From Selenomonas sp. (GTDB taxonomy: Bacteria > Bacillota > Negativicutes > Selenomonadales > Selenomonadaceae), in NCBI GenBank assembly GCA_017635515.1, contig JAGBLH010000073.1:1-36601 (forward strand): DNA of 36,601 nt, given 5' to 3'. Both the position numbers and the translations under genes were made by a program. The notes below the pieces were generated by a model. The model did no database searches. It was given only the letters and a program-made list of their open reading frames with translations, and was not told where the DNA came from. Positions 888-36,601 of this stretch are shown here, piece by piece. Within the stretch, counting starts at the first letter, position 1. Each line of letters starts with the position of its first letter.

Positions 888-2426
888 TTGTTCCTCATAG
901 CACTCTCACCGATTCTCTGGCTGGTTATCGCCCTGTCTGTACTGCATATGCCGGCGCATAAGGCTTGCTCGGCAGCTCTCGTCATCGCGATTGCGGCAGC
1001 CATGACCATGTTTGGTCTGGACGGCACGCTGGCGGCGGAGGCCGCCCTAGACGGCGTGGCCCTGGCCTGCTGGCCGATCCTCTTGGTTATCATCGCAGCT
1101 ATCTTTACTTATAATCTGGTGGTGCACACCAAGGGCATGGAGGTCATCAAGTCCATGCTCTCCTCCGTCAGCTCTGACCGCCGCGCCCTGATCCTCCTCA
1201 TTGGCTGGGGCTTCGGTGGCTTTTTGGAGGGCATGGCGGGCTTCGGCACGGCTATCGCCATCCCGGCGGGCATGCTGGCAGGCATCGGCATCCCTCCCGT
1301 CATGGCGGTGGGCGTCTGCCTTATTGCCAACTCTGTGCCTACGGCTTACGGCTCCATCGGCATCCCTCTGGTGACCCTGGGCAGCGTCACGGGCATTGAT
1401 GCCACCACCCTGGCTGGCTTCACTTCCCTGCAGCTGGCACCTCTCACCCTCCTGTGCCCCTTCCTCATGACCATCGTCTCCGGCGAGGGCCTCAAGGGCC
1501 TCAAGGGCATGGGCATCATGTGCCTGGCGGCCGGGCTGGCTTTCCTCATCCCCGAGTACGTCATCGCCAGCACCATGGGTCCTGAGCTGGCCGTGGTGGC
1601 TGGTTCCATCGGTGCCATGGCTGCCATCGTGGCTGTGGCCAAGATGCTGCCCGTGAACAATCCCGAGTATGAGATGCATCCTGACCATACGGGCACCGAG
1701 GAGGAAGTCACCGCCAGCAAGGGGCTGGTGGCCTGGCTCCCCTTCATCCTGATCTTCGTGTTCCTGCTGCTCACCTCCAAGCTGGTGCCGGGCATCCATG
1801 ATCCTCTGTCCGCCATCAAGAGTTCTGTGCTCATCTACAGCGGCGAGGGCGGCACTCCCTATACCTTTACTTGGGTGAACACCCCGGGCATCCTGATTTT
1901 CCTGGCAGCCTTCATCGGTGGCACCGTGCAGGGGGCCGGCATGGGCGAGATGCTGGGGGTCTTGAAGAAGACTATCGTGAACCTGCGCTTCACCATCGTC
2001 ACCATCATCACCGTCATCGCCACCGCCAAGGTCATGGACCACAGCGGCATGACTTTGGAGCTGGCCCATACGGCGGTGGCGGTCACTGGCACCATGTATC
2101 CCATGGTGGCAGCCTTCATCGGCTCCATCGGCACTTTCATCACCGGCTCTGCCACCTCCTCCTGCGTGCTTTTCGGCAAGCTGCAGACGGGCTCTGCCCA
2201 GGCCATTGGCGCAAGCGAGTCCGTGCAGGCCTGGATTGCGGCTTCCAACGCCACCGGTGCCTGCGCAGGCAAGATGATCTCTCCCCAGAGCATCGCCATC
2301 GGCGTGGCGGCTATCGGTGCCAAGGGCATCGATGGGCAGCTCTTGCAGTTCGCCGTGAAGGTTTACATTCCCTTCATCATTGTCATGGGCTGCATCGTCT
2401 ACTTCGGCCAGACACTGGTGGGCTGA
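888..2426 (+). CDS. lctP: L-lactate permease (LctP/LldP family)
   Basis: Predicted polytopic inner-membrane lactate:proton symporter, about 512 residues, close to the family length of 510-560. The protein is almost entirely hydrophobic helices. It carries family-typical stretches such as GFGGFLEGMAGFGTAIAIPA near residues 108-127, a serine/threonine-rich ITGSATSSCVLFGKLQ and GACAGKMISPQSIAIG near the C-terminus. The start is taken as TTG at 888, with AAAGGA 9 nt upstream; the reading frame is open further upstream but that part overlaps the promoter. Transcribed alone from the strong promoter at 810-838 and followed by a hairpin at 2499-2521. Substrate could include glycolate or D-lactate, as in other LctP members. 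Gene name is by family resemblance. Confidence 0.92.
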   Translation: MFLIALSPILWLVIALSVLHMPAHKACSAALVIAIAAAMTMFGLDGTLAAEAALDGVALACWPILLVIIAAIFTYNLVVHTKGMEVIKSMLSSVSSDRRALILLIGWGFGGFLEGMAGFGTAIAIPAGMLAGIGIPPVMAVGVCLIANSVPTAYGSIGIPLVTLGSVTGIDATTLAGFTSLQLAPLTLLCPFLMTIVSGEGLKGLKGMGIMCLAAGLAFLIPEYVIASTMGPELAVVAGSIGAMAAIVAVAKMLPVNNPEYEMHPDHTGTEEEVTASKGLVAWLPFILIFVFLLLTSKLVPGIHDPLSAIKSSVLIYSGEGGTPYTFTWVNTPGILIFLAAFIGGTVQGAGMGEMLGVLKKTIVNLRFTIVTIITVIATAKVMDHSGMTLELAHTAVAVTGTMYPMVAAFIGSIGTFITGSATSSCVLFGKLQTGSAQAIGASESVQAWIAASNATGACAGKMISPQSIAIGVAAIGAKGIDGQLLQFAVKVYIPFIIVMGCIVYFGQTLVG

Positions 2427-30786: not shown

Positions 30787-32583
30787 ATGTTTTTTATGAA
30801 CTCTGTGAAAGGACGGCTGACGGCCATGTTTGTGGCCATCGGTGTCCTGGCCACTCTGACAGTAGGCTCATACTTCATCTTCAGCACTATCCAGGAAAAC
30901 AAAGAGGAAAATATCGCCTACAGGAAAAACCTGGAGGAACACTACGACAGGGAAATCAAGCTGCAGACAGAAGCTCTGGTATCCTCCCTGAACGGCATCT
31001 ACTCGCAGCAGCAGCAGGGCAAGATCACCGAAGCCCAAGGCAAGGAACTGGCTCTGGCTACCATCAGGGCCCTGCGCTACGATGATGGCAAGGGCTACTT
31101 CTTTGCCGATGAGAAAGATACTGGCATCTGCGTGGCCCACGCCACCCTGGGCTCCAAAGTCGAAGGCAAGATGCGCCTCAATGACAAGGACAGCAACGGC
31201 GTCCTCTATATGCAGGAAATCTTCAAGGCAGCCCAGCAGGAGGGCGGCGGCTACTCCAACTTCGCCTTTCCCAAGCCCGGCGAGAGCACTGACCTGCCCA
31301 AGCGGGGCTATTCCATGGAATTCAAGCCCTATGGCTGGATCATCTGCACAGGCTCCTGGATTGACTACATAGACGAGGCGGCAGCCGCCTATGTGGCAGA
31401 AAATGAATCCGCCCTCTACAGCAGGATTGCCATGGCCGCCGTTATCATGCTGGTGATTTCCGCCCTGATGGTGGTCTTTGGCATCAAGCTGGCAGGCGGC
31501 TTCAGCGGCCCCATCTCCTTTGTCACCGGACGCCTGCAGAAGTTTGCCCAAGGAGATTATCGCCAGGAACCCATCAATCCGGAATTTGCAAGCCGGCAGG
31601 ATGAAATCGGCCAGATGGTGGAAGTGCTGGGAGTGATGGGAGGCAGCATGAGAAAGCTTTTGGATGCCATCCGCAGCTCTGCCCAGCAGGTATCTTCCGA
31701 TGCCGCCCAGCTGAATGAAATGACCGCCCAATCCGCCACCGCCAGCCAGCAGGTGGCCGAATCCATCACCGATGTGGCCAACGCTACCAACACTCAGCTC
31801 ACCGCCATCACCGAGGCTACTGAGGCCATGGAAAACCTGCTCTCCCGCATAGAGACCATGGCCCACAACGCCCGTCGGGCTGCGGTAGAGACCAAGCAGG
31901 CCACGGACGAAGCCCAGAAGGGGGCCGAGGTCGTAGACCGCACCGTCAAGGATATGGCCCGCCTCAGCGAAGTGGTGGGTGAATCTGCCCGGGTAGTCAA
32001 CAGCCTGGGCGAGCGCTCCGACACCATCGGCAAGATCACCGATGACATTTCCGGCATTGCCGAGCAGACCAACCTGCTGGCCCTGAATGCCGCCATCGAA
32101 GCCGCCAGGGCAGGAGAGGCAGGACGGGGCTTTGCCGTAGTGGCCGAGGAAATCAGGAAATTGGCAGCCCAGTCCGAAGAAGCCGCCAGCCGTATCGCCT
32201 CCCTCATCGCCCAGATCCAGCACGAGACAGAGCAGGCCGTAAGCAGCATGCACGACGGCACCGCCCAGCTCACCTCCACTCAGAAAAGCGTGGAGGAAAC
32301 CGGCCAGGTCTTCGACCAGATCGTAACCCTGGTGGACAAAATCGCCCAGCGCTCCCAAAAGATTTCCGCCGACTCCCAGGAGGCCGGCGCTAGTGCCAAA
32401 ACCTGCCGCAATTCCATCGACAATATCAGCCAGATGAGCCGCAGCGTGGTATCCAACGCCGAAACTGTCTCCGCCGCCACAGAGCAGCAGACCGCTGCCG
32501 TCCACGAAATGAACACCAACACCCAGCAACTGGCCAGGATGGCAGGAGAACTTGAGCAGGAAGTAGCGAAATTCAAGGTGTAG
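30787..32583 (+). CDS. Methyl-accepting chemotaxis protein with single Cache sensor
   Basis: A 598-residue chemoreceptor. TM1 spans ~10-32; an sCache_2-type periplasmic domain follows (~36-190; containing [15 protein letters not shown], and [22 protein letters not shown]). TM2 is at ~213-233 and the HAMP at ~236-290. A long signalling coiled coil has its hairpin tip [19 protein letters not shown] at ~426. It lacks a C-terminal CheR/CheB tether pentapeptide. sCache_2 domains often bind small carboxylates, but the ligand is not readable here. ATG 30787 is preferred because AGGAGG lies 8 nt upstream; the ATG at 30781 is only 2 nt from it. Monocistronic, between two hairpins. No flagellar-type promoter was recognised upstream. 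Confidence 0.94.
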
Positions 32584-32605
32584 ATACCCTGCTGGAACAA
32601 TAAAG

Positions 32606-32638
32606 AATAGCCCGGCAAGTGAATCCTGCCGGACTATT
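32606..32638 (+). terminator. Hairpin after the chemoreceptor gene
   Basis: AATAG-C-CCGGCA (32606-32617) pairs with TGCCGG-A-CTATT (32627-32638), with one C-A mismatch. The T-run is interrupted (CTATTGCTTTAT), so it is a moderate terminator. Confidence 0.7.
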
Positions 32639-32692
32639 GCTTTATCGCATTTGATCAGCAAGCCTCTAAAAAGAAGAAATGATACAAATAGA

Positions 32693-32721
32693 TTGACAAT
32701 TACATATAACCATGATATAAA
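32693..32721 (+). promoter_or_regulatory. Strong promoter driving the degenerate CRISPR repeat pair
   Basis: TTGACA (32693-32698) and TATAAA (32716-32721) with a 17-bp spacer. Transcription would start near 32728, about 50 nt before the first degenerate repeat. An AGGAGGG (32730-32736) follows without a good ATG/GTG/TTG at normal distance. Readthrough into cas3 is possible, since no terminator is visible between. Confidence 0.85.
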
Positions 32722-32776
32722 TAATAAATAGGAGGGAGTCAAACTGCTGATTGATAGTGCAGGATTGCAAGAATCA

Positions 32777-32858
32777 GTTTACCGCTGCAAGAATGCGGCT
32801 TAGAAGGTTTGTACTTTTAATGTTGTGATTCAGTTACCGCCGCGAGGTGGCTTAAAAG
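32777..32858 (+). CRISPR. Degenerate type I-F mini-array (two pseudo-repeats, one pseudo-spacer)
   Basis: Pseudo-repeat 1 (32777-32806) starts GTTTACCGC, has a 4-bp CCGC/GCGG stem with an enlarged 9-nt loop, and ends in the 8-nt handle CTTAGAAG. Pseudo-repeat 2 (32832-32858) starts AGTTA, has a 5-bp stem CCGCC/GGTGG with loop GCGA, and ends CTTAAAAG. Both follow the type I-F repeat plan of 5 nt, hairpin and the 8-nt CTTAGAAA-like handle, but they differ from each other in sequence and length. The insert between them (32807-32831) is 25 nt, shorter than the usual 32. This is not a normal array; it looks like a crRNA-like regulatory RNA gene. The 337-nt interval 32584-32920 holds only this element, its promoter, its target and the preceding hairpin. 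Confidence 0.75.
32799..32850 (+). ncRNA. Predicted crRNA-like regulator (CreR/CreA type) of the cas operon
   Basis: If Cas6f cuts after each hairpin, the product would carry the 5' handle CUUAGAAG, a 25-nt guide (32807-32831) and the 3' hairpin of pseudo-repeat 2. Its first 15 guide positions match the DNA at 32887-32901 at 13 sites: GTTTG, then ACTTT, then AAT, with mismatches only at positions 6 and 12. Those are the positions that Cascade flips out and does not read. Beyond position 15 similarity stops, as expected for RNAs that bind and block without triggering Cas3 cleavage. The RNA itself, its ends and its processing are inferred, not seen. Confidence 0.65.
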
Positions 32859-32869
32859 GTGTTGATTGG

Positions 32870-32918
32870 TGATATATTTATACACCGTTTGAACTTTAAA
32901 TAAATTTAAAAGGGAAGT
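32870..32918 (+). promoter_or_regulatory. cas3 promoter region with PAM-flanked target of the crRNA-like RNA
   Basis: An extended -10, TG-A-TATATT (32870-32878), places a start near 32885; its -35 is weak. The dinucleotide CC at 32885-32886 is the type I-F PAM, directly followed by the partial protospacer from 32887. A full 32-nt footprint would reach 32918 and cover the start region and the cas3 ribosome site (AGGGA, 32911-32915). Binding there would block cas3-cas8f transcription, whether it starts here or reads through from 32728. Confidence 0.6.
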
Positions 32919-32920
32919 TC

Positions 32921-35848
32921 ATGATGGAATATATGAAATTACTTTCAGGTATACTGGTACTTACCTCGTTGTTGCACGATTGGGGCAAAGCCAATGATGC
33001 TTTCCAGGAATCGCTGCGAAAGAAGAAAGCGAGAGATTGCTATCGTCACGAGTGGCTTAGCTGCAAGCTGGTGGAGAATCTTTGTGCTGCTGCTGATAAC
33101 GATGCTGATTGGCTTCAGCAGCTTGCCGAAGGAAAAATTGATGAAAAGGCTCTTATCGCGGCAATACAAAAAAACTATGCTCAGGAGATAGGTGAAATGC
33201 CACCTATTGCCAGCATGATTTGCTGGTTGATTCTGTGCCATCATCGAATGCCGACGCTGGAAAAGGAAGCATGCGCTGGCTTCGTGAAAGCCGAGGGCAG
33301 TTCTTTTCAAGAGGTGCTTTCTTTAATTGAGCCTGGATGGGGATATAAGAAAACCGCAGAGGCGAAAATTCCCCTATTTTCCAAGGGGTTGCTGCTTGAT
33401 TCGGCAGTTTGGCTTCAGAAGGTGAAAGAAGCCAGTCAGGCAGTGCTGGATGAGCAAGATGGGTTTCTGGAAATATGGGATAATGACAACACGAGAATTT
33501 TCTTATTGCAGGCGAGAATTTGCCTGATGCTGGCGGATTATACTGTTTCGTCAGAGGAGGCTGATAAAACATGGAAAGGTGGGAGACAGGTCCTATATGC
33601 TAATACCTGCCAAGGAAAGCTGAAGCAGAAACTTGCTGAACATCTGGTTCGTGTCTCTCAACAGGCTGTTCAGACAGTCATTGCCTTGCCAAAACTAATG
33701 GCTGGTATGAAACAAGCAAGAAGTGTGGAGAAACTCCAACAGGCAAGTGCAATGCCTGAGTTTGTCTGGCAGGACTTGGCAGTGCAGGCTGTGCGTGAAA
33801 ATAAGGCGCAGATTGAGGATGAGGTTGGTTGGTTTGTAGTCAATATGGCGGGAACAGGCTGTGGCAAAACCTTTGCCAATGCCAAGCTGGCCATGGCTAT
33901 CTCGAAAGATGGAGAATCCCTAAGGTATAGTCTTCTGCTGGGACTTAGAAGCCTTACACTGCAGACCGGTGACGAATATCGCAGTCGTGTAAGGCTAAAC
34001 GAAGACGATATGGCTGTATTGATTGGTTCTGCTACGGTCAAGGAACTGCATGAACGCTTGGAAGTTGGAAAAGAGGAATTTGAGACCGCTTGGGACGACA
34101 ATAGTGATACTGCAAATATGAATGAGCTTTTGCCTGGTGATATTGATGGTGGCGTTGCTCAGGGAGAAGAGGTTTTGGCGGCGCTCTTTCCTCAGCGCAA
34201 TGAAGATGCAAGCCAAAAGCATCGCAGATTGCTATATGCACCTGTGCTGGTGTCCACCATCGACCACCTTATGCCAAGCACGGAAAGCATTCGCGGGGGA
34301 CGTTATATGCTGCCTGTGCTGAGGATGATGACGGCTGATATTGTCATTGATGAGATAGATGATTTCACAGGCAGTGATTTGGTAGCTATAGCAAGGCTTA
34401 CGCATCTGGCTGGCATGCTGGGGCGCAATGTGATATTGTCATCGGCAACTATCCCGCCTGATTTGGCCGAAGGTTTATTTTCTGCCTATAAAAGCGGACG
34501 GGCACTCTATGCCCGTTTCTTTGGCAAAAGCAATGCTATCAACTGCGTTTGGTGTGATGAGTTCATGACCAAAGTAAAGTTGATGGACAACCAAAAAGCA
34601 GATGATTTCAGGAGGGCTCATGCTGCGTATGTTGAGAGCCATTGCAAGAAACTTCTGGTTCAGCCGCCGAAAAGATGGGCCTGGATAAAGGAGTGCAGTG
34701 ATATTTTGAGGAAAACAGGCGATGAGCGGCGAAAAGCATATTGTGAATCTATGAAAGAAGCGGCAGTCATTCTTCACCATAATTACTTCGTAACAGATAA
34801 GAAAACAAATAAGAAAGTATCAATTGGTCTAGTCCGGACAGCGAATATCAGGCTTTGTGTGGAAGTTGCCAAGTATTTCGTGGAGACAGCCGTGTGGCCA
34901 GAGGATATGGCACCGAGGATTATGGTGTATCATAGCAGGCAGACACTGCTTTTGCGAACCTTGCAGGAGAAATATCTTGATGGAGCCTTGAAGCGCAAGG
35001 GGCAGGACACAGAGAAGATTGATTTTACAGATAGTGTAATGCGTAAGCACATAGACGAAGCAGACGAAAATAATATTTTGTTTATTGTCATAGCTACACC
35101 TATCGAGGAAGTAGGCCGAGATCATGATTTTGACTGGGCCATATTGGAGCCATCTTCGTATCGCTCGCTCATTCAGTTGGCTGGTCGTATTCGCAGACAT
35201 AGACGTGCATTCAAGGCAAAGGCTTTAGGCAATATCTGCATAATGCAATATAATATGTTGGCTTTGGAGGGGAAAAAGATAGCATACACCTTGCCGGGCT
35301 TTGAATGTGAGGAATATGTCTTGGAGACACATGATTTGCAGCAACTGGTAGATGTTGAGGGCTTGGCCGAGAGAGTAGATGCCATACCAAGAGTCAGCAG
35401 GCGGGAAAGTTTAACACCAAAGAGAAGATTCATAGATTTGGAGCATCAAGTATTGAGCGATTTTCGCAATCTTTCCAATGTGGGAGCAGCTTTTATTCAC
35501 GGCTGGCAGGATGAGTACTGGTATTTGACTGGTTTGCCGCAAATTTTGAATCCTTTCCGGAAGGGGGAAAAAGATAGAGAATTGTATCTAAGAAAGGATG
35601 ACGTGGGGCGGTATAGATTCTATGAAATAGATGAGGCGTCTGGGGATTTTCAGCTGATTGAAGAAACCTATGGCATCGTTCATGCTGAGGTTGAAGAAAG
35701 TGAGAAGTTTTGGCTTGAGAGGGACTATGGCACCGCAAGCGGGGGTGATAAGGAATGGAGTTATAGAGTGGGACTGCTGACTATTTCTGATAAGAAACGC
35801 GAGCGCATCTATTCTGATCAATATGGCATGGTTGAGCTTGTTAGGTGA
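32921..35848 (+). CDS. cas3: CRISPR-associated helicase-nuclease Cas3, type I-F, without Cas2 fusion
   Basis: Cas3 unwinds and degrades DNA marked by Cascade. The 975-residue protein opens with an HD nuclease motif, LLHDWGKANDAFQ (H19-D20), close to the I-F form. It then has Walker A GTGCGKT (G311-T317), a DEID box at D477-D480, SSAT at 507-510, and QLAGRIRRHRR (~752-762) as motif VI. In canonical I-F systems the HD domain is preceded by a fused Cas2 domain of about 90 residues plus a linker; here only 18 residues precede the HD. ATG 32921 has AGGGA 5 nt upstream; ATG 32924 at 8 nt is equally possible. AT-richer than the genes to its left, consistent with acquisition of the locus. Followed by cas8f after 12 nt. 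No cas1 is in the window. Confidence 0.88.
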   Translation: MMEYMKLLSGILVLTSLLHDWGKANDAFQESLRKKKARDCYRHEWLSCKLVENLCAAADNDADWLQQLAEGKIDEKALIAAIQKNYAQEIGEMPPIASMICWLILCHHRMPTLEKEACAGFVKAEGSSFQEVLSLIEPGWGYKKTAEAKIPLFSKGLLLDSAVWLQKVKEASQAVLDEQDGFLEIWDNDNTRIFLLQARICLMLADYTVSSEEADKTWKGGRQVLYANTCQGKLKQKLAEHLVRVSQQAVQTVIALPKLMAGMKQARSVEKLQQASAMPEFVWQDLAVQAVRENKAQIEDEVGWFVVNMAGTGCGKTFANAKLAMAISKDGESLRYSLLLGLRSLTLQTGDEYRSRVRLNEDDMAVLIGSATVKELHERLEVGKEEFETAWDDNSDTANMNELLPGDIDGGVAQGEEVLAALFPQRNEDASQKHRRLLYAPVLVSTIDHLMPSTESIRGGRYMLPVLRMMTADIVIDEIDDFTGSDLVAIARLTHLAGMLGRNVILSSATIPPDLAEGLFSAYKSGRALYARFFGKSNAINCVWCDEFMTKVKLMDNQKADDFRRAHAAYVESHCKKLLVQPPKRWAWIKECSDILRKTGDERRKAYCESMKEAAVILHHNYFVTDKKTNKKVSIGLVRTANIRLCVEVAKYFVETAVWPEDMAPRIMVYHSRQTLLLRTLQEKYLDGALKRKGQDTEKIDFTDSVMRKHIDEADENNILFIVIATPIEEVGRDHDFDWAILEPSSYRSLIQLAGRIRRHRRAFKAKALGNICIMQYNMLALEGKKIAYTLPGFECEEYVLETHDLQQLVDVEGLAERVDAIPRVSRRESLTPKRRFIDLEHQVLSDFRNLSNVGAAFIHGWQDEYWYLTGLPQILNPFRKGEKDRELYLRKDDVGRYRFYEIDEASGDFQLIEETYGIVHAEVEESEKFWLERDYGTASGGDKEWSYRVGLLTISDKKRERIYSDQYGMVELVR

Positions 35849-35860
35849 GGAGGGGTAAGG

Positions 35861-36601
35861 TTGAGTGTTTTTCTGGATGAACTTGCAAATAAAGCCAAAA
35901 AGGATAAGGATTTGAGGGACTGTTTGCTGAGACTGGCCGATAATGCCTGCAAAATCGAACTGGCTACACATATCGGCAAATATACAGATCCTGAACTGCA
36001 GATAAATTATTGCGTGTCTACGGATGGCGTGGCTGACAGTAATTATGTGATGACTAAGACTGTGAATTGCCAGGTTGATATGTATGGCAGTGCCTCATAT
36101 GCTGCCACTAGCAGTTTGCTGACCAAGAAACTGGAGGATGGCAGGACAGTATATCAGCATCTCAATAATGATGATATGTTGCGGGAAGATATAGAATCCC
36201 TTGGCCTTGCTTATGATGAAATCAAAGAAAAGCTGCTTGCTTTCAAGAAGCCTGATAGTCATGCGCCCATAGGGAATAAGCTTAGGCAAGTGTTTTTTCC
36301 TATCGGAGATACAGATCACCTGCTATCAGTCATGCAGCCTGCCTGCATTATCCAGGAATTGGCGGCTAGGACAAGGGCGATGAGGGAGTGGAAGTTTGCA
36401 GCAAGGAAGCCGGAGGCTGATATTGAGGAATACAGTGAGATTTATGGGATGGTGAGCACCAAAATAGGAGGTGCCAATGCACAAAACGTGTCTATAGGGA
36501 CTACTGGCATGGATGCGAAAATGTTGTTGTCAATGCCCCCAAAATTCGAAAAACGAGTCATGCTGCCTAGAAATGATTTTTTCAAAGAAAAAGTGTGGTT
36601 C
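35861..36601 (+). CDS. cas8f: Type I-F Cascade subunit Cas8f (Csy1), truncated by window edge
   Basis: Large subunit of the type I-F surveillance complex, which contributes to PAM recognition. The visible 247 residues include a segment with MYGSASYAATSSLLTKKLEDGRTVYQ at ~74-99 and VSTKIGGANAQNVSIGTTG then LLSMPPKF at ~202-230. The latter correspond to the GGTxPQNIS...LLxSLPP block typical of Csy1. The start is TTG 35861, with AGGAGG 7 nt upstream (MSVFLDELANKAKK), which is why an ATG-only search would miss it; no in-frame stop occurs before the window end. It lies 12 nt after cas3, so they share a transcript. Genes for Cas5f, Cas7f and Cas6f are expected beyond the window. Divergent from Pseudomonas Csy1, so assignment rests on the conserved block and context. 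Confidence 0.78.
   Translation, partial: MSVFLDELANKAKKDKDLRDCLLRLADNACKIELATHIGKYTDPELQINYCVSTDGVADSNYVMTKTVNCQVDMYGSASYAATSSLLTKKLEDGRTVYQHLNNDDMLREDIESLGLAYDEIKEKLLAFKKPDSHAPIGNKLRQVFFPIGDTDHLLSVMQPACIIQELAARTRAMREWKFAARKPEADIEEYSEIYGMVSTKIGGANAQNVSIGTTGMDAKMLLSMPPKFEKRVMLPRNDFFKEKVWF

Follow-up and report, generated by a model that had tools for sequence, protein, structure and literature searches.

Directly upstream of the cas3f gene in a stretch of Selenomonas DNA of 36,601 nucleotides (the window, which makes up all of contig C7 in an assembly of 316 contigs), a pair of degenerate type I-F repeats flanks a 25-nt pseudo-spacer (32777-32858), and the beginning of this pseudo-spacer matches a PAM-flanked site at the cas3 start. 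The same geometry recurs with different seeds in related I-F loci. Based on these comparisons, the mini-array is very probably an autorepressor of the cas3-csy1 operon, of the kind represented by CreR and the CRISPR mini-arrays. A sequence-only reading of this DNA had proposed a self-targeting crRNA-like repressor of its own cas operon, and our analysis supports that reading, with the mechanism itself still a prediction.

The cas3f locus and its mini-array

Type I-F CRISPR-Cas systems consist of cas3f and csy1 through csy4 accompanied by a 28-nt I-F repeat, and ordinary I-F systems carry Cas2 fused to Cas3. The window itself holds two members of this set on the + strand. The first is cas3f (32921..35848; TIGR02562 and Pfam), which scores 721.8 bits with profile positions 112-1042 of 1110 aligned. 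Because the alignment to TIGR02562 begins only at position 112, the Cas2 part is missing. The second is csy1 (cas8f; 35861..36601; PF09611, 106 bits), which begins 12 nt past cas3, forms one operon with it, and is truncated by the contig end. The locus contains neither cas1 nor cas2, and the gene upstream of the mini-array encodes a chemotaxis receptor (MCP) rather than Cas1.

The csy2 through csy4 genes of this system lie beyond the contig end and were not found elsewhere in the same assembly, in which its array is also not assembled. Searches of the source genome return only other I-F repeats, along with two csy3 genes that are more distant (54% and 39% identity to the csy3 of a sister genome, G001). 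This sister shares the locus (cas3 88% identical, the same receptor gene and a nearly identical leader), and carries a complete csy1-csy4 set and an array of GTTAACCGCCGTGTAGGCGGCTTAGAAA. Because csy2-4 and the array are absent from the window's assembly, a working complex in its strain is assumed from G001, and the window repeats are judged against the G001 repeat.

When the G001 repeat is scanned over all 36.6 kb of the window, the best match begins at 32777 and the second best at 32833. Thus, the two elements described by the sequence-only reading as degenerate I-F-style repeats around a 25-nt pseudo-spacer are the two best matches available, and its expectation that the true repeat should resemble them is borne out, as judged by the repeat of G001. 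The first repeat (32777..32806, + strand), identified by this match, by folding and by a scan for hairpins with handles, contains the stem-loop CTGCA-AGAA-TGCGG (32785-32798) followed by the 5′ handle CTTAGAAG (32799-32806). The guide (32807..32831, + strand) reads GTTTGTACTTTTAATGTTGTGATTC. The second repeat (32832..32858, + strand), identified by the G001 match, by folding and by its retention in G001, contains the stem CCGCC-GCGA-GGTGG (32837-32850) followed by CTTAAAAG, such that 30 nt separate the end of the handle from the second stem. A generic repeat finder missed this degenerate pair, and neither an Rfam search of the window nor searches of plasmid and phage collections gave a match.

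Both repeats can fold into a hairpin with five base pairs and a loop of 4 nt (CUGCA-AGAA-UGCGG for the first and CCGCC-GCGA-GGUGG for the second), and both hairpins end either just before CUUA or one base after that point. Folded alone, repeat 1 gains one extra pair, which involves the first C of the handle. Repeat 1 lacks the canonical CCGCC stem: in place of CCGCC/GGCGG its helix includes a G-U pair and closes with A-U, which leaves cleavage by Cas6f less than certain.

A putative promoter for the mini-array, P1 (32693..32721, + strand), was read by eye as TTGACA and TATAAA separated by 17 nt, with TG placed one base upstream of the -10 element, and lies inside the stretch that is deleted in G001. 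A sigma-70 consensus scan of positions 32560-32960 reported no promoter; P1 is not listed because the scan demands T at position 6 of the -10 element. Between the mini-array and cas3 there is no consensus promoter. A putative extended -10 element in this interval (TG-A-TATATT, 32870..32878, + strand), read from the sequence, may belong to a second promoter, P2, that would tentatively place the start of cas3 transcription near 32885; P2 is tentative because it has no sigma-70 consensus match. The cas3 ATG at 32921 is preceded by the Shine-Dalgarno-like AAGGGA (32910..32915, + strand).

A strong Shine-Dalgarno-like sequence, AGGAGGGAG, is also present between P1 and the guide (32730-32738). Short open frames that follow it overlap the mini-array, with a CTG frame ending at 32803 and a TTG frame ending at 32828 (stretch 32730-32828), and these could encode a leader peptide, be left from a gene that was lost, or exist by chance.

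The site matched by the guide (32887..32901, + strand) is flanked by CC (32885..32886, + strand), the PAM of type I-F systems (PMC7305327). The target from 32887 reads GTTTGAACTTTAAAT, and within its first 15 nt the guide, GTTTGTACTTTTAAT, mismatches only at positions 6 and 12. Both the coordinates and the letters of this 13-of-15 match agree with those first reported. Hereafter, the 13 positions within 1-15 other than 6 and 12 are called the core. Among the 5,952 CC sites of the window, 32887 is the sole site with no core mismatch, and any other site has at least four. When the target region was dinucleotide-shuffled and all CC sites on both strands were considered, two or fewer mismatches in 15 arose in 5 of 100,000 cases and an exact match to all 13 core positions in none of 100,000. 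The original estimate of one in a million for a chance match is too strong; taken by itself, the window justifies a figure of about 5e-5 per region, and the comparative evidence described below is far stronger. An empirical null, in which 474 true spacers were compared with 12 promoter regions, never exceeded 11 of 13 core matches. Local duplication was considered as a source of the match and is unlikely, because the similarity stops after the first 15-17 nt and does not extend upstream.

Covariation of guides and targets among relatives

A family search covered 189 genomes, 24 of which carry cas3f; an order-level search covered the same genomes. Many of the cas3f-bearing relatives have a two-repeat mini-array between cas2-3 and csy1. 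Specifically, 11 other I-F loci of the Selenomonadaceae combine a mini-array with a target that has CC in its flank and is located at the promoter or the start of csy1. The sequence-only reading had held that relatives should keep the seed-target match as well as the repeats, and these 11 loci do so. With the window included, all 12 guide-target pairs have the CC PAM and the same (+) strand sense, and the target lies at the promoter or start of csy1, or of cas3 in the window. Most targets in the relatives run into the TTGACA -35 box of csy1, and in G131 (L064) the target covers the csy1 -10 element.

The 12 pairs represent 10 different seeds. No mismatch occurs at positions 1-5, 7-10 or 13-15, whereas five pairs mismatch at position 6, seven at position 12, one at position 11 and eleven at position 18. 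For example, the G163 guide TTTATATATTTAATTATC differs from its target, CC-TTTATTTATTTTATTATT, at positions 6, 12 and 18, and the G046 guide ATATTTGAATCCTGAGGAA differs from CC-ATATTTGAATCTTGAGGAA at position 12 only. Within positions 1-15, 12 of the 13 mismatches are at 6 or 12 (binomial P of 3.6e-10 if mismatches were placed at random, a value to be read with the knowledge that the loci are not fully independent). Guides attain core scores of 12-13 of 13 against their own promoters, and no more than 10 of 13 against the promoters of loci with different seeds. The type I-F complex pairs in a 5+1 pattern and tolerates a mismatch at every sixth position (PMC7305327), and in type I-E complexes positions 6, 12 and 18 are flipped out (PMC5965380). 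The alignments show covariation between guides and targets that follows the 5+1 rule of I-F pairing.

An unsupervised scan for handles and seed-target matches, which examined 654 handle-like sites, recovered 11 of these mini-arrays; that of G046 was found separately, as its handle falls outside the filter of the scan. Duplicated matches located at array sites made up most of the remainder, and two further matches, with one core mismatch each, lie on the minus strand. A strict mini-array pattern matched in 12 of 380 genomes of the class, and its reversed control matched in none. One of the strict matches, in G248, lies inside a gene and is an evident false positive. The first-repeat hairpins are kept through paired changes (CCATC/GATGG, CCGTC/GACGG, CCACC/GGTGG and CAGCC/GGCTG). 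The mini-array of G179, whose contig ends before csy1, was left out of the target test. In two cases, L066 (G179, reverse strand, 7770) and L090 (G046, 8700), the mini-array handle is CTTAGCAA instead of CTTAGAAA, and the true repeats of G046 carry CTTAGAA.

Could the window element be the remnant of a decayed ordinary array, in which two old repeats and a spacer persist without function and match the leader by chance? Its repeats are indeed degenerate, it has been deleted in G001, and an orphan repeat pair on contig C196 demonstrates that such relics exist in the same genome. Regardless, the match is unique in the window and arises at 5e-5 per region by shuffling, none of the 474 true spacers attains the observed core score, and 11 relatives share the geometry with different seeds and with mismatches almost only at 6 and 12. 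The covariation already contradicts this explanation, and we consider it quite improbable.

A module resembling CreTA, in which the guide would repress a small toxin rather than cas genes, has in its favor the strong AGGAGGGAG and the short frames that run into the mini-array. However, within the window the guide targets the cas3 leader only, and not P1, and the relatives with a located target all have it at the csy1 promoter or start. We assign this possibility a very low probability. Through these 12 loci, the family offers a natural collection of self-targeting I-F guides whose mismatches are nearly confined to 6 and 12, the flipped-out positions, a pattern that amounts to an evolutionary read-out of how the I-F complex reads DNA.

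Predicted repression, placement and loss of the guide

In the autorepression scheme that we propose, the mini-array would be transcribed, probably from P1, and Cas6f would cut after each hairpin to yield an RNA composed of the 8-nt handle CUUAGAAG, the shortened guide and a 3′ hairpin. This RNA would load into the I-F (Csy) complex, which could then pair with the site at 32887, next to its CC PAM, along the first 15 nt of the guide and in the 5+1 pattern. Binding is predicted to stop after about 15 nt; because positions 16-19 would be unpaired, the R-loop would be incomplete and Cas3 would not cut. A complex held where the cas3-csy1 operon begins would block initiation, or elongation from P1, and thereby lower synthesis of the very complex that represses. 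Repression should lift when the complex is scarce, filled with crRNAs from the array, or blocked by an anti-CRISPR. Whereas these steps are deduced from sequence, the repeats, guide, PAM, seed match, conservation and guide-target covariation are directly observed.

The guides of the mini-arrays are short. The distance from handle to second stem is 24-26 or 29-30 nt, and a true I-F crRNA has 37 nt over the same distance. Cascade can repress by promoter occlusion or as a roadblock (PMC5904413). In type I-E systems, Cascade blocks promoters less well when mismatches are PAM-distal (PMC5904413), which counts against the proposed scheme; it is a matter of speculation that the shortened guides are an answer to this weaker blocking. 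As a tentative extension, which we regard as possible but doubtful, short guides might give rise to a Csy complex that is smaller by one or two Cas7f subunits and binds without the ability to recruit Cas3, so that the repressor would differ from the complex that kills. The same speculative reading would have the regulator follow the cas8f promoter, so that fusion of the operon in the window's lineage moved it to its present place before cas3. If guide length does set the size of the complex, then two RNAs would yield the killing and repressing forms of one machine.

A different use of the RNA, as an antisense element or attenuator acting on the cas3 message, might be suggested by its position in the 5′ leader, where transcripts from P1 would contain the mini-array. 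The guide, however, runs in the sense direction relative to the cas3 message (and to the csy1 message in the other pairs) and hence cannot pair with it, which excludes antisense pairing of this kind. Such an action would also leave the PAM and the 5+1 pattern unexplained. There is hardly any likelihood that this alternative is correct.

In eight relatives of the set L049-L068 that have csy1 directly behind cas3 (gaps below about 90 nt, estimated from alignment starts), no mini-array was found, and relatives in the same set with a gap and a separate csy1 promoter usually have one. In the window, cas3 and csy1 are joined too, yet the mini-array heads the joined operon, before cas3; the window, with cas1 and cas2 also missing from the locus, is the derived case among the mini-array loci. 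In some other relatives the mini-array is absent or deleted. In the closest relative, G001, the regulator has been lost naturally: at this locus (L026, reverse strand, about 3560) a 140-bp deletion corresponds exactly to 32692-32831 of the window, such that P1, the first repeat and the guide are lost while the second repeat and the target are kept. The guide is therefore dispensable there. No cas1 gene was found anywhere in G001.

These losses raise the question of whether the window carries a real mini-array, formerly an autorepressor, that is now decaying and unprocessed in its strain. The weak stem of repeat 1 and the deletion in G001 favor this view, and the absence of cas1 from G001 adds that control of an adaptation-less system may be relaxed. 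On the other hand, no mismatch affects any of the 13 seed positions that are read, P1 has the look of a strong promoter, and the hairpins end beside CUUA as in true repeats. We judge decay to be unlikely, although clearly the most credible of the alternatives to a functioning autorepressor. The window and G001, with and without the guide and with near-identical targets, constitute a ready experiment on the worth of autorepression.

Relation to known systems and other I-F loci of the genome

The sequence-only reading knew of such regulators in other CRISPR systems and had not seen this particular one described; mini-array regulators were published in 2023, a type I-F1 example among them. Shmakov et al. 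(2023) reportedly found CRISPR mini-arrays with spacers partly complementary to cas promoters, including that of cas8, and tested a type I-F1 case experimentally. The window element resembles these in its two degenerate repeats, its spacer that partly matches a cas promoter and its position beside cas genes, and it differs in having its target in the leader of cas3, at the head of a cas3-csy1 operon that is fused and lacks cas1 and cas2. Because such autorepressors are already published, we file the element under a known control principle. Autorepression by crRNA-like RNAs is familiar, and the element is a well-supported further case of it, with a placement that is new and comparative evidence that is unusually clean.

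CreR RNAs, known from types I-B, I-E and V-A, have limited complementarity to a cas promoter and are predicted to mediate autorepression that is relieved by crRNAs or anti-CRISPRs (PMC13131331, PMC12737573). The window guide likewise has limited complementarity to a cas promoter or start, but belongs to subtype I-F, is shortened, and has mismatches with 5+1 spacing; its repression is also predicted. In keeping with mini-arrays and CreR, repeats that are degenerate relative to the G001 CRISPR repeat surround one spacer beside cas genes, the seed is complementary to a PAM-flanked cas start, and guide and target covary in relatives (12 pairs, 10 seeds).

Two other classes are less similar. CreA of CreTA is a crRNA-like RNA from degenerate repeats that guides Cascade to a promoter (PMC9458426). 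The window element shares this origin from degenerate repeats, but its only target in the window is the leader of a cas gene, cas3, with no toxin gene or toxin promoter under it. Racr RNA anti-CRISPRs are solitary repeat units of phages (PMC10651486) and share with the window an I-F repeat mimic outside an array. In contrast, the window has two repeats and a self-matched guide on the chromosome, next to an MCP gene and cas3, and it is neither a solitary phage or prophage unit nor matched in the phage collections.

The source genome contains additional I-F elements. The orphan two-repeat mini-array on contig C196 (L012, about 1458-1521, minus strand) has the guide TATATATTCTTGGTTGTCTTGTTTT, which is similar to that of G002, and adjoins TnpB and recombinase fragments. 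A search of its own genome for a second target of this guide gave only weak matches, at the level of the reversed control, and the pair appears to be what is left of a cas locus since lost. A third I-F set on contig C216 (L005, 9292-14200) includes csy1-csy4 and an array of GTTGACCGCCGTGTAGGCGGCTTACAA; no cas3 was found in its upstream stretch, and there is no mini-array at csy1. Finally, contig C172 (L004, 5032-8838) carries a type I-F locus in the order csy3, csy4, csy1-HNH, csy2, with an array repeat of GTGTACCGCCGGATAGGCGGTTTAGAAG. The HNH nuclease domain fused to csy1 places this locus in the published Cas8-HNH kind, which was described from Selenomonas (PMC10910872).
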